A stretch of 64,000 nt of DNA, taken from the NCBI GenBank assembly GCA_002897675.1, contig BDSU01000018.1:1-64000 (forward strand). Reading direction: 5' to 3'. This document shows, piece by piece, positions 52,925-57,508 of this stretch (position 1 is its first letter; each line of letters begins with the position of its first letter). Under the pieces are notes generated by a model. That model did not search any database. It saw nothing but the letters and a program-made list of their open reading frames with translations, and was not told where the DNA came from. The stretch comes from a bacterium BMS3Abin02 (GTDB lineage Bacteria > Actinomycetota > Acidimicrobiia > Spongiisociales > UBA4744). The translations under genes were made by a program, and so were the position numbers.

Positions 52925-54142
52925 CTACACGACCCAGAGCAACAGACCCAGGCCGAGGACAACCATGATGGCCCCGGTCACGCTCCGTATGGTCTTCGAC
53001 GAGGATCGTTCCCATGCCTGGATCTTGCCGCCCAATACAGGGTCCAGCGCGAGGAACAGCACGACCACCAGCGGAAGGACGAACATCACGTTGTACAGCA
53101 CCAGGTAGCCCACTCCCTGCCAGAAATGCGTCTGGCCGGCCAGCAGACCCAGCACGGCCACGTACGGGCCGCCCGAGCAGGGGAACGTGTGCAGTCCCAC
53201 CAGCGTCCCCAGCACCAGGGTGGTCGGCAACGTGGCCCGGTTCATCCACGTCTTCAGCGATTCCTTGCTGCTTTCGGGCACCTTCATGCGGAGAGGAAAC
53301 TTGGGAAAGAGGGCGCCCAACATGTTCGTCAAGCCCAACAGAATCAGCAGAATTGCGCCCGCCTGACCCAGCCAATGTCCCTTCAGGAGGGTCGAGGCCC
53401 GCAGCAGGCCCAACCCGATGAGGAAGTAGACGACATAGACCGCGCCGATGTACACCGCACCCATACGGATGACGGAGACGCGTGTCTTGCGAATGGTGAA
53501 CAGAAAGGAGATGAAGAACAGCAGGATCGCCAGAGCGCAGGGATTGATCCCGTCGACCAGTCCGGTCAGGAGCACCGTCGGGAGCAGCAGCTTGGCCGGT
53601 TTGTGGACATCGGTCGCAAACCCCTCCCTGTTGGCCTCGAACCATGCCAGGTACTCCGAGACGGGCGTGTCCGCCGGATACGTCATGACCGGCCCGGCGA
53701 AGGCCCAGACCTGGTACTCGCTCCGGTCCTGCTCTTCGCCGTAGACCAGAATCTTCTCCGGCAGAGGTTCGTCCGGAGTCAATAATGCCTCCACCACACT
53801 GCGGGGCGGTTCGCCTTGAAGGATGATGCGACCGTCGTCCACGAACGTGGCGAGGTGGCTTTGCAGGTCCAGCGGCACGCCCAGGCGGTCGTTCAACGCA
53901 TTGAAATCCGACCGATTCTTCCGCTGGTTGATGTAGTCGTTCTTCGTCAAGGGAATCCCGGCGGCGGTCATCAAATCCGTCAGTTCCCCCGCGACGTAGG
54001 TCACGCACTCGTCGCAAGCCTCGTTGTAGTACACGACGGCCTCACGTTGCGCCGCGTCCACCCTGGCCGGCAGGAACAAACTCCCCAGGACAAATGCCAC
54101 AAGGGTCATGCCCAAGAGTGATGTCGTCGTTCTCATCTTCAT
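52925..54142 (-). CDS. CcdA/DsbD-like membrane protein with N-terminal thioredoxin-like domain
   Basis: A 405-residue protein. Residues 1-30 are a signal segment; 35-165 form a thioredoxin/glutaredoxin-like domain with CDEC (Cys43, Cys46) in VVYYNEACDECVTYV and a VDDGRIILQGEPP strand that resembles the DUF411 strand encoded upstream. Residues about 185-405 carry six membrane helices of the CcdA type with the two conserved Pro-Cys sites, DGINPCALAILLFF and HTFPCSGGPYVAVLG. It would pass electrons across the membrane to the external CxxC domain. Row counts give about 55% GC here against 60-70% for housekeeping genes, hinting at transfer. Last gene of the module. Confidence 0.85.
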   Translation of the reverse strand: MKMRTTTSLLGMTLVAFVLGSLFLPARVDAAQREAVVYYNEACDECVTYVAGELTDLMTAAGIPLTKNDYINQRKNRSDFNALNDRLGVPLDLQSHLATFVDDGRIILQGEPPRSVVEALLTPDEPLPEKILVYGEEQDRSEYQVWAFAGPVMTYPADTPVSEYLAWFEANREGFATDVHKPAKLLLPTVLLTGLVDGINPCALAILLFFISFLFTIRKTRVSVIRMGAVYIGAVYVVYFLIGLGLLRASTLLKGHWLGQAGAILLILLGLTNMLGALFPKFPLRMKVPESSKESLKTWMNRATLPTTLVLGTLVGLHTFPCSGGPYVAVLGLLAGQTHFWQGVGYLVLYNVMFVLPLVVVLFLALDPVLGGKIQAWERSSSKTIRSVTGAIMVVLGLGLLLWVV

Positions 54143-54155
54143 CCTGCAGCTCTCT

Positions 54156-54509
54156 TCAACAACAGGTCAGGGTCTTGGGGATCTCCCCATCTTCGAGTTC
54201 CCCAAAGGGATTCCCATACCGACGAATGTTGGCAATCATCGTCTTGTTCACTTCGGTTTCCACTCCGTTCGCCACCAATCCGGCACGAATGGATTCACCG
54301 TCGGGATCGTGAGTCACCGGGCAAACTTCCCGACAGGCGCGACAGAGCGTGCATTGGTAAAAGAGCACCGATGCGATGCCCCCCGAGGCCAAGATCGCCA
54401 ACCCACGCGGACTGATCTGTTCCTGTCGCAGGATGCCAAAGACCGGACAGAACTCGCGGCACAACCCGCATTCGATACAGGGCGGGTTCTCCGCGTGCGT
54501 GTTCAACAT
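54156..54509 (-). CDS. 2x[4Fe-4S] ferredoxin-like protein (HdrC/GlcF-N type)
   Basis: A 117-residue protein with two cluster motifs: Cys11, 14, 17, 21 (CIECGLCREFC) and Cys53, 56, 59, 63 (CTLCRACREVC), in the layout of HdrC or the N-terminal half of GlcF. It ends in a Cys-Cys pair (116-117). The ATG overlaps the end of the flavoprotein gene by seven bases. It should carry electrons between the flavoprotein and the CCG-domain protein. Rows 54121-54240 are about 51% GC by count, well below the neighbours. Confidence 0.88.
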   Translation of the reverse strand: MLNTHAENPPCIECGLCREFCPVFGILRQEQISPRGLAILASGGIASVLFYQCTLCRACREVCPVTHDPDGESIRAGLVANGVETEVNKTMIANIRRYGNPFGELEDGEIPKTLTCC

Positions 54510-55678
54510 AGCTTTCCCCGGTTCAGCACACCCTGAGGGTCATAGATGTCCTTCAGGCGCCGTACCTCGGCTCGATAACTCGCGGTGGTCCAGGTCTTCT
54601 TCTTCAGTCCGACGCCGTGTTCGCCGCTGACTTGGCCACCCAGGTCCGCCACCTGTCCGTAGAGGGTGGCAATGCGCTCGTCGTCGGGGGGGAAACAGGG
54701 ATGGATGATGCCGACCCCCAGATGACCGAAGGCGGGGATGGCTTCGGCGTCGAGCCATGGCAACAGCACCGACAGTCCGTCGGCGTCCAGTTTCGGATCT
54801 TCGATGACCGGGTAGCCGTGTCCGGCGAGCACCGGATACAGGCCGTCACGGGCCCGCCACACGGCGTCGATCCGGTCCGGATCGGTCAGCTCCCCGCCAT
54901 CCGAGTCGAACTCGGCCAGCAGATGAGGGCGAGGCTCCCAGCCGATGGCGCCGGCGGCGTGGCGGTTGAGGTACTCGAGCGCCGTGAGCCGGGGATCGGA
55001 GATCCATTCGTCCCGTTGGGCCGACAGCACGCTTTCGTCATCGTCCGCGAACAGGGAGACGGTCCTTCGGTGCGGCAGCGCGGCGAGGCGCACCGTCGCC
55101 TCCACGATGAAGCCGGTGACGCCTTCGCGGCCGACTACGTCGTCGAGCGCCTCTCCAGCGATACGACGTAGACGACCACGACCGTCCACCAGGGACAGTT
55201 CTTGCACCCAGCGGCGCATCGACCCGTACCGCACGGCTCGCAGCCCGGCGGCGTTGGTGGCGATCATGCCGCCGATCGTGGCCGCCCGGTGGCTGCCGGG
55301 AACGACGGGCAGGAACAGGTCGTGGACTTTCAGGTTGCGGTTGAGGGAGCCCAGGACGACTCCGGCGCCCACCCGTGCCATCCGGCCTGTGGTGTCGATG
55401 GAGACGACGGTGTTCAGGCGGGAGAGGTCCACGACGAGGGACTTCTGGGGGGTTGCCCCGCCGCACAGGCCCGTGCCCGCGCCCCTCGGTGTCAAGTCGA
55501 CACCGACCGCCTGCGCCCATTCGACCAGGGCGGTCACCTGTGGCGGTTGCGAGGGCCAGACCACGGCCAGGCAGTCCCCCTCCAGGCGGGAGGCGTCCCT
55601 CCCGTACACGACCAGGTCATCGGTGGAGTCCGATACGTTCCCCGCCCCGACGATCGCACGCAGCTCCGCCGTGTTCAT
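54503..55678 (-). CDS. FAD-linked oxidase (GlcD/D-lactate dehydrogenase-like)
   Basis: A 391-residue VAO/PCMH-fold flavoprotein. FAD-binding blocks VWPSQPPQV, TPRGAGTGLCGG and PGSHRAATIGGMIATNAAG, and the C-terminal VSGEHGVGLKK match GlcD and D-lactate dehydrogenase, but the chain is some 80-100 residues shorter than GlcD. It would oxidise a 2-hydroxy acid and pass electrons to the iron-sulfur partners. Start ATG overlaps the stop of the CCG gene (ATGA); an upstream frame extension is rejected because it runs over that gene. Confidence 0.88.
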   Translation of the reverse strand: MNTAELRAIVGAGNVSDSTDDLVVYGRDASRLEGDCLAVVWPSQPPQVTALVEWAQAVGVDLTPRGAGTGLCGGATPQKSLVVDLSRLNTVVSIDTTGRMARVGAGVVLGSLNRNLKVHDLFLPVVPGSHRAATIGGMIATNAAGLRAVRYGSMRRWVQELSLVDGRGRLRRIAGEALDDVVGREGVTGFIVEATVRLAALPHRRTVSLFADDDESVLSAQRDEWISDPRLTALEYLNRHAAGAIGWEPRPHLLAEFDSDGGELTDPDRIDAVWRARDGLYPVLAGHGYPVIEDPKLDADGLSVLLPWLDAEAIPAFGHLGVGIIHPCFPPDDERIATLYGQVADLGGQVSGEHGVGLKKKTWTTASYRAEVRRLKDIYDPQGVLNRGKLC

Positions 55679-56379
55679 GGCGCAGGTTCCGTGTCGGGGA
55701 CGTGGGCCAGCGCCTGACTGAACTCCAGCACCTCGATGCCGTCGGCGTTCTGTTTGAAGTGCGCGTAACAGAGAGGACAGGTGGTACACAGACGGCCGTT
55801 CTCCACCATCTCCAGGCGCTGGCAGGCGATCGCGTCGGCGAGTTCGGGGAAATTCGACTTCAGTCCGCCACCGGCGCCGCAGCAGAGGCTCTGTTCGCGG
55901 TTGTCGGGCAGCTCGGACACGCGCCATCCGGCGGCGGCCAGGAGCCGGCGCGGCTCGTCATAGACGCCGGACCAACGTCCGAGATGGCAGGGATCGTGGT
56001 AGGTGATCTCCCCTGCACCGGCGGCTTCCTCGTTCTGACCATCCGGCCGGAGCCCTGCCAGGGCCTGGGAGATATGGATCGCATCCAGGCCATAGTCTTG
56101 CTCGAGCGTGTGGTAGCAGCCGGGGCAGTTGGTGATGACCTTGCGGACGCTGAACCTGGCGAACACTTCCAGGTTCTTCGCCTTGAGATCTTCGAACTCG
56201 TCCAGATAGCCGGCCCGTTTGACCGGGCTTCCACAGCACAGAGTCTCGCCGGGAAGCATGATGAAATCGATGCCGGCACGACGCAACAGGGCTTCGTAAC
56301 TCGCCTGGATATCCGGCAGGGCATAGCGGGTTACGCAGCCGGGATAGTAGAGCGTGTTGCTTCCGGAGAGTCTCTCCAA
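55675..56379 (-). CDS. CCG-domain iron-sulfur protein (HdrB/GlcF-C type)
   Basis: A 234-residue protein with two CCG domains: Cys15...LCCGSP (48-49)...NCPGC, and HDPCHLG...SLCCGAGGG...CTTCPLC. These bind the unusual cluster of heterodisulfide reductase subunit B and are the C-terminal half of GlcF. TTG start is the only one in frame after the DUF1573 stop; the stretch before it could encode a few more residues but has no standard start. With the flavoprotein and ferredoxin it makes a split GlcDF/HdrBC-like complex. Confidence 0.87.
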   Translation of the reverse strand: MERLSGSNTLYYPGCVTRYALPDIQASYEALLRRAGIDFIMLPGETLCCGSPVKRAGYLDEFEDLKAKNLEVFARFSVRKVITNCPGCYHTLEQDYGLDAIHISQALAGLRPDGQNEEAAGAGEITYHDPCHLGRWSGVYDEPRRLLAAAGWRVSELPDNREQSLCCGAGGGLKSNFPELADAIACQRLEMVENGRLCTTCPLCYAHFKQNADGIEVLEFSQALAHVPDTEPAP

Positions 56380-56403: not shown

Positions 56404-56826
56404 CTAGCTCTCTGCCTTGCGGATGGTTGCACGAAATTCCACTTCGGCTTCGGGCGTGTCCGGGTCATTGCTGCGGACGTAGATGATTCGCATCACGTCG
56501 CCGTGAAGGTTGTCTTCGATCGGGTCGAGCGTGACGCGCAGCTGGGTGGTTTTGCCCGGTGGGATGGTCTCGCTGTCCACCGACGCTTTGGTGCAGCCGC
56601 AAGAAGTACTGACTTTCTCGATCTCGAGCACGCCGTCTCCCTGGTTTCGTATCGTGTAGCTCGTTTCGAGAGGTTCTTGGGGAACCTCGCCCAGGTCTTG
56701 CGTGGCGGGTTCGATGACGATACGCGGGGCGCTGGTGGCACAACCGGAGAACAAGATGACAATCAGGACGATGAGGGCTATGAGCCCCATCCTCCATGTC
56801 CACGGTGAAGGGTTTCTGGTGGTCAC
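56404..56826 (-). CDS. DUF1573 lipoprotein
   Basis: A 140-residue exported lipoprotein: signal helix to residue 28, lipobox FSGC with Cys29, then one DUF1573 immunoglobulin-like domain (DLGEVPQEPLETSYTIRNQG, EIEKVSTSCGCTKA, IPPGKTTQLRVTLDP). The CGC in STSCGCT is the family hallmark and could bind metal or take part in thiol exchange. GTG at 56826 is used; ATG 12 codons later is possible. It is 24 bases before the CCG gene and 175 bases after DUF411. Confidence 0.86.
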   Translation of the reverse strand: MTTRNPSPWTWRMGLIALIVLIVILFSGCATSAPRIVIEPATQDLGEVPQEPLETSYTIRNQGDGVLEIEKVSTSCGCTKASVDSETIPPGKTTQLRVTLDPIEDNLHGDVMRIIYVRSNDPDTPEAEVEFRATIRKAES

Positions 56827-57001: not shown

Positions 57002-57508
57002 TCAGTAGTCGAACGGCTTCAGGGCTCCATCGGTCGTGATCAGCATCACCGGCTGAGACTCCCAGGTCGAAGTGTCGCCACCCATGCCGGGAGAATCCGA
57101 CGGCATGCCCGGCAACGCCAGTCCGATCGCGTCGGGCCTCGTGTCGAGGAGTCGCAGGATCGCGCCGGCAGGCACGTGTCCTTCGATGACATAGCCGTCC
57201 ACCACGGCGGTGTGGCACGAATGCGCCTCCTCCGGGATGCCGCTCGAAAGCTTGAATGATTCGATTTGCTCGTCGACCTGCACGTCGAGGTCTGCTCCGA
57301 GATTCTGTAGGTACCCGACCCACTCTGTGCAGCATCCTCAGCCGGGGGGTACGTGGATCTCCATGGCCACGCCGGTCAGATCCAGGCTGCGTGCCGTTCC
57401 GGCGGCCGTCGCCGTGGTGGCAGCTGTGGTGGTGGTGGTCGAGGTCCCGCCACAGGCTGCCACCAGCAGCGCCAAGGTTACGAAGACGGCGAAACGCTTC
57501 ACGGTCAT
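57002..57508 (-). CDS. DUF411 lipoprotein with in-frame TGA (candidate selenoprotein)
   Basis: Read through one TGA, this is a 168-residue DUF411 protein. Residues 1-18 are a signal sequence with lipobox LVAAC (Cys19), then a Thr-rich linker. The TGA is codon 57 (57338-57340) in HVPPG-U-GCCTEWVGYL. DUF411 proteins read (P/T)CGCC there, so TGA stands for the first cysteine. After it the frame stays open and conserved to the end: SCHTAVVDGYVIEGHVPAG, LALPGMPSDSPGMGG. Nothing else is broken. Family members are periplasmic copper-associated proteins. Selenocysteine is the best reading; a Cys-to-stop mutation giving a dead gene is the alternative. It heads the minus-strand redox run. Confidence 0.72.
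57292..57332 (-). promoter_or_regulatory. candidate bacterial SECIS hairpin
   Basis: Starting five bases after the TGA, CTGC pairs with GCAG and GAG with CTC; above them GTGGGT (57323-57318) pairs with ACCTAC (57312-57307) around loop CGGGT. The loop starts 20 bases after the TGA and has G at positions 2-4, within the usual spacing and loop rule for SelB recognition. Drawn by eye, no energy calculation. Confidence 0.38.

Follow-up and report, generated by a model that had tools for sequence, protein, structure and literature searches.

Can a TGA codon in the frame of a bacterial lipoprotein gene, at a position where the protein family carries a cysteine, be understood as a selenocysteine (Sec) codon, and what might Sec do there? 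The question is raised by a DUF411 gene in the window (the whole stretch of 64,000 nucleotides analyzed here), which belongs to an actinobacterial genome of the class Acidimicrobiia. A reading based on the nucleotide sequence alone, hereafter the sequence-only reading, had proposed that UGA is read as Sec and gives a U-G-C-C metal or redox center on an exported lipoprotein. The explanation favored here, to which a probability of roughly 0.93 is assigned as a whole, is that of a lipid-anchored, secreted Sec protein of the CopG/DUF411 family, produced by the host's own Sec system under the direction of a SECIS element and involved in copper handling. The features first concerned are the following.

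57002-57508, minus strand: gene for a DUF411/CopG-type exported lipoprotein with an internal, putative Sec-TGA; the frame ends in TGA
57338-57340, minus strand: in-frame TGA (predicted Sec57) replacing the first Cys of the CGCC motif; also TGA in 24 related loci
57452-57508, minus strand: signal peptide with lipobox LVAAC, from the translation; Cys19 codon at 57454-57452

The gene and its internal TGA codon

The minus-strand frame 57508-57002 reads directly as MTVKRF...LVAAC...VPPG-TGA-GCCTEWV...FDY-TGA, with no other internal stop. Its residues 96-142 match Pfam DUF411 (PF04214) above the gathering score (E 6.6e-25), and the CGCC motif lies upstream of this 48-position model; a phmmer alignment with CopG 6WIS (3.6e-23) places the TGA opposite the first Cys of CGCC. 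Translation, Pfam, and phmmer comparisons thus bear out the initial claim that TGA stands in for that Cys in an otherwise intact DUF411 frame, and one mark of a bacterial selenoprotein, an in-frame TGA opposite a Cys of the homologues, is present. The frame itself was correctly read, with the exception of its start. Because GGAGGG abuts the ATG at 57508 directly, with no gap, and in view of homologue comparison, the true start is inferred to be, likely, the in-frame GTG at 57502. Standard annotation would miss such a gene or call it truncated. The other frames of the window that are opened by TGA readthrough have no Cys-like motif by eye and look like non-coding frames.

Distribution of the TGA and Cys forms

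Read-through searches for related genes covered 395 class genomes, the order (138 genomes), and, for the phylum at large, a sample of 397; a genome-contig collection was searched as well. In total, 24 distinct related loci, 44-94% identical, have their TGA at precisely the corresponding codon and are otherwise free of internal stops; one of them came from the contig collection. The random further stops in close relatives that would have refuted the sequence-only reading are therefore absent, and by this comparison the TGA is not a sequencing accident, as it recurs in 24 distinct loci without any other stop. The column has Cys elsewhere, with TGC or TGT in all 41 motif-bearing homologues outside the TGA class (counted among L053-L096, from other groups). 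Within the order, 22 of the 138 genomes have a DUF411 match, namely 20 of the TGA form, one of the Cys form (L027 in genome G152, with TGT at the codon), and one fragment. Two matches in the contig collection have TGA (L051 and L052), both from Acidimicrobiia/Acidimicrobiaceae, L051 being apparently the contig of L029. The lipobox Cys is conserved among homologues, and C59, C60, C98, H99, M135, and M142, all downstream of the TGA, are invariant.

In a tree calculated with the codon in question masked, the 24 TGA loci and L027 are found on one branch (SH-aLRT 99); the alignment is short, and many forks are unresolved. Two changes of state suffice on this tree, and they are read, from the sequences, as one gain of TGA and one nested reversion to Cys. 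The clade thus offers a natural experiment, in which one lineage would have gone back from Sec to Cys. Among the relatives, genome G086 harbors tandem copies of the TGA-form gene (L108, 5761-6276 and 8307-8798), and two actinobacterial DUF411 relatives (L120 and L126) have CSCC or CECC in place of CGCC, without TGA.

Selenocysteine machinery of the host

As a check on its proposal, the sequence-only reading asked whether the genome also encodes selA, selB, selD, and tRNA-Sec; all four were found in the host genome, a draft of 2.5 Mb in 46 contigs. They comprise selA (TIGR00474, 445 bits), selB directly after it, selD (377 bits), and a tRNA-Sec with anticodon UCA (79.9 bits). Two further marks of a bacterial selenoprotein are hence in place, the co-occurrence of SelA, SelB, SelD, and tRNA-Sec with the TGA gene, which is directly observed, and the occurrence of TGA-containing homologues in other Sec-using organisms. 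Outside the order, two genomes of the class (G157 and G366) combine the TGA form with selA. Conversely, no selA was seen in two TGA-form genomes, G331 and G304, both of which are incomplete (72% and 79%). As selA is common in the order anyway (113 of 138 genomes), its co-occurrence with the gene is weak evidence. The host selD gene (L019 1501-2427; G000:C45:144344-145270) itself contains one in-frame TGA, together with a strong, canonical-looking hairpin with a GGUCU loop.

UGA might instead specify a standard amino acid, such as Cys by way of a suppressor tRNA or Trp in a variant code. Such decoding would be in keeping with the Cys found at this column elsewhere, including the TGT of the relative in G152, but it is very improbable. 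The only UCA anticodon among the 38 tRNA-bearing loci examined belongs to tRNA-Sec, the SelA/SelB/SelD set is complete, the window gene and many of its homologues use TGA as their terminator, and SelD carries an in-frame TGA too. In the window itself, Rfam finds only two tRNAs.

Selection downstream of the TGA and a SECIS-like element

Beyond the closest relative, second-position differences after the TGA amount to 0.02-0.24, as against 0.38-0.73 for third positions (block from the SCH anchor). This large excess of third-position differences indicates that the part downstream of the TGA is translated and constrained. Such purifying selection weighs against the idea that the TGA is a true stop and the gene a pseudogene or the source of a truncated lipoprotein. 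Decay does occur in related genomes, where one paralogue has an internal deletion (L119 in G241) and another is reduced to a C-terminal fragment (L118 in G098). Nevertheless, across 24 loci with identities as low as 44%, the codon is always TGA and never TAA or TAG, C59, C60, C98, H99, and the Met residues are invariant beyond it, and a SECIS-like block is conserved, so that a true stop is scarcely credible.

Synonymous constraint is strongest, among the 93 columns that could be tested, at codons +8 (GGG, 17/17), +7 (GTC, 22/22), +5, and +14. These four columns fall within bases 15-45 after the TGA, which also contain a conserved hairpin. It is the ranking of the columns and not a p-value that serves as evidence, since the synonymous null ignores relatedness. 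The block GGGTCG[GT]GTACCT is found in 22 of 25 loci and in none of the 41 Cys homologues, 18 of which have GTC at codon +7. The hairpin lies as follows.

57307-57323, minus strand: SECIS-like hairpin GUGGGU[CGGGU]ACCUAC, loop at 57317-57313, 20 nt after the UGA

With a spacing of 20 nt, a stem of 6 bp, and a 5-nt loop, CGGGU, with G in position 2, it has the geometry that the published bSECIS model asks for. Of the 25 loci, 21 conform to this geometry, compared with 2 of the 41 Cys homologues and a background of 0.28% at random TGA sites, and the consensus across loci is GUGGGU[CGGGU]ACCURC. The bSECIS check proposed by the sequence-only reading thus yields a SECIS-like hairpin where one was expected, under strong synonymous constraint, with a reservation as to energy. 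The model requires a minimum free energy of at most -7.5 kcal/mol. The 48-nt segment from +9 reaches -8.8 kcal/mol, but the isolated 6-bp stem, which includes G-U pairs, is weak, and a contiguous stem on its own meets the cut-off in only one of the 25 loci. Strict stem-only energy does not single out the Sec loci, whereas geometry and synonymous constraint do. Compensatory changes inside the hairpin are few. For L041-L043, the three TGA loci that diverge most, other hairpins have to be assumed, L043 being a poor fit.

The conservation of the TGA and of the element downstream of it is directly observed. UGA 57340-57338 would then be decoded as Sec by the host SelA, SelB, SelD, and tRNA-Sec, with the hairpin directing insertion. 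The machinery, the recurrent TGA, and the hairpin together support the Sec interpretation, and selenium incorporation is considered very likely; it remains an inference from sequence, without protein-level evidence.

Predicted fold, predicted copper site and gene neighborhood

The AlphaFold2 model, in which Sec was modeled as Cys, has a mean pLDDT of 87, and its top Foldseek matches are the CopG structures 6WJE and 6WIS (TM 0.82-0.84 by target length, 34-38% identity). With PF04214 above its gathering score and a predicted CopG fold, the protein qualifies as a member of CopG/DUF411. CopG binds a tetranuclear copper cluster via a CxCC motif and two methionines (review, PMC7558416). The corresponding elements are present here as UxCC and the adjacent, invariant M135 and M142, the identity of the ligand methionines not having been taken from a structure.

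Several related loci have metal-related neighbors. In L099 the gene adjoins a copper-type P-ATPase, L052 has a P-type ATPase together with a MerR-type regulator, and both L100 and L107 have heavy-metal P-type ATPases; in L101, CcmF and a Rieske protein are encoded near the gene. No copper-related genes were seen beside the window gene, and copper neighbors are not conserved across the clade. The window gene is followed by another gene of known family.

56404-56826, minus strand: DUF1573 gene, Cys form, with a below-cutoff match to the OS_HP2 (seleno)protein model; downstream and co-linear, shared function not shown

This DUF1573 protein has the SCGC form of a motif for which the family has known selenoprotein members (UGC motif). 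Farther along, 52925-56379 (minus strand) appears by eye to encode a CCG-domain protein, an FAD-linked oxidase, a 4Fe-4S protein, and a thioredoxin/CcdA-like membrane protein. This neighborhood, DUF1573 and the electron-transfer-like set, is common only within the genus.

Accordingly placed beside CopG, the product would be a secreted, lipid-anchored thioredoxin-fold protein with U-G-C-C for C-G-C-C. Sec might serve in a thiol/selenol oxidoreductase and not in a copper-cluster protein, given that most selenoproteins are redox enzymes, many of them with a thioredoxin-like fold (PMC13188914), that one downstream neighbor of the window gene has weak DsbD/ArsG-type matches, and that CcmF occurs near the gene in L101. 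This remains possible but is the less favored option, as the closest solved relatives, at 34-38% identity, are CopG copper proteins, the full set of CxCC, C98-H99, and Met is conserved, and copper or heavy-metal ATPases adjoin the gene in several genomes.

The role favored, as an inference, is one in copper handling, in which Sec would be either a ligand or the redox atom; it rests on the CopG fold, the conserved motif and Met residues, and the metal-ATPase and CcmF neighbors. By homology with CopG, the selenolate would most likely be a copper ligand and/or the redox-active atom, and the exported factor may act in copper handling, either in resistance or in the maturation of cuproproteins or cytochromes. 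Copper chemistry at Sec is judged rather probable, by analogy and without copper-binding data; the metal or redox role initially proposed is still inferred. The more specific idea, an exported protein in which Sec bridges copper atoms as a ligand of a multinuclear cluster, is tentative, with the odds slightly against it and no binding data. We know of no described protein with a copper-selenolate site of the bridging kind. Selenium at a copper site, as predicted here, would link selenium and copper metabolism.

Relation to known selenoproteins and to CopG

The sequence-only reading knew of no described DUF411 selenoprotein, and none has come to light. DUF411/CopG is missing from the 2026 catalogue, which comprises 119 families or subfamilies of prokaryotic selenoproteins (PMC13188914), and no literature linking DUF411, COG3019, or CopG with selenoproteins was found in a search that left out subscription papers and preprints. 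Similarly, a literature search for Acidimicrobiia selenoproteins retrieved no paper. It is still possible that the family was listed earlier without being noticed, for instance in the groundwater survey cited for further candidates in PMC13188914. The Sec form of CopG/DUF411, as predicted from sequence comparisons, appears to be a selenoprotein family absent from that catalogue and conserved in at least 20 related genomes.

The putative protein resembles the UGSC family, the UGC form of DUF1573, and the SO_0444 Cu/Zn efflux transporter in having Sec for a conserved Cys in a metal/thiol motif, with a SECIS downstream (PMC13188914); these are unrelated families, and none of them is DUF411/CopG. 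With CopG itself (DUF411, PF04214; 6WIS, 6WJE) it shares sequence, predicted fold, the CxCC-type motif, SCH, GMP..SPGM, and export. In contrast to CopG, where the first residue of the motif is Cys, that residue is TGA-encoded here, presumably as Sec, and the protein, found in an actinobacterial class, has a lipobox anchor.
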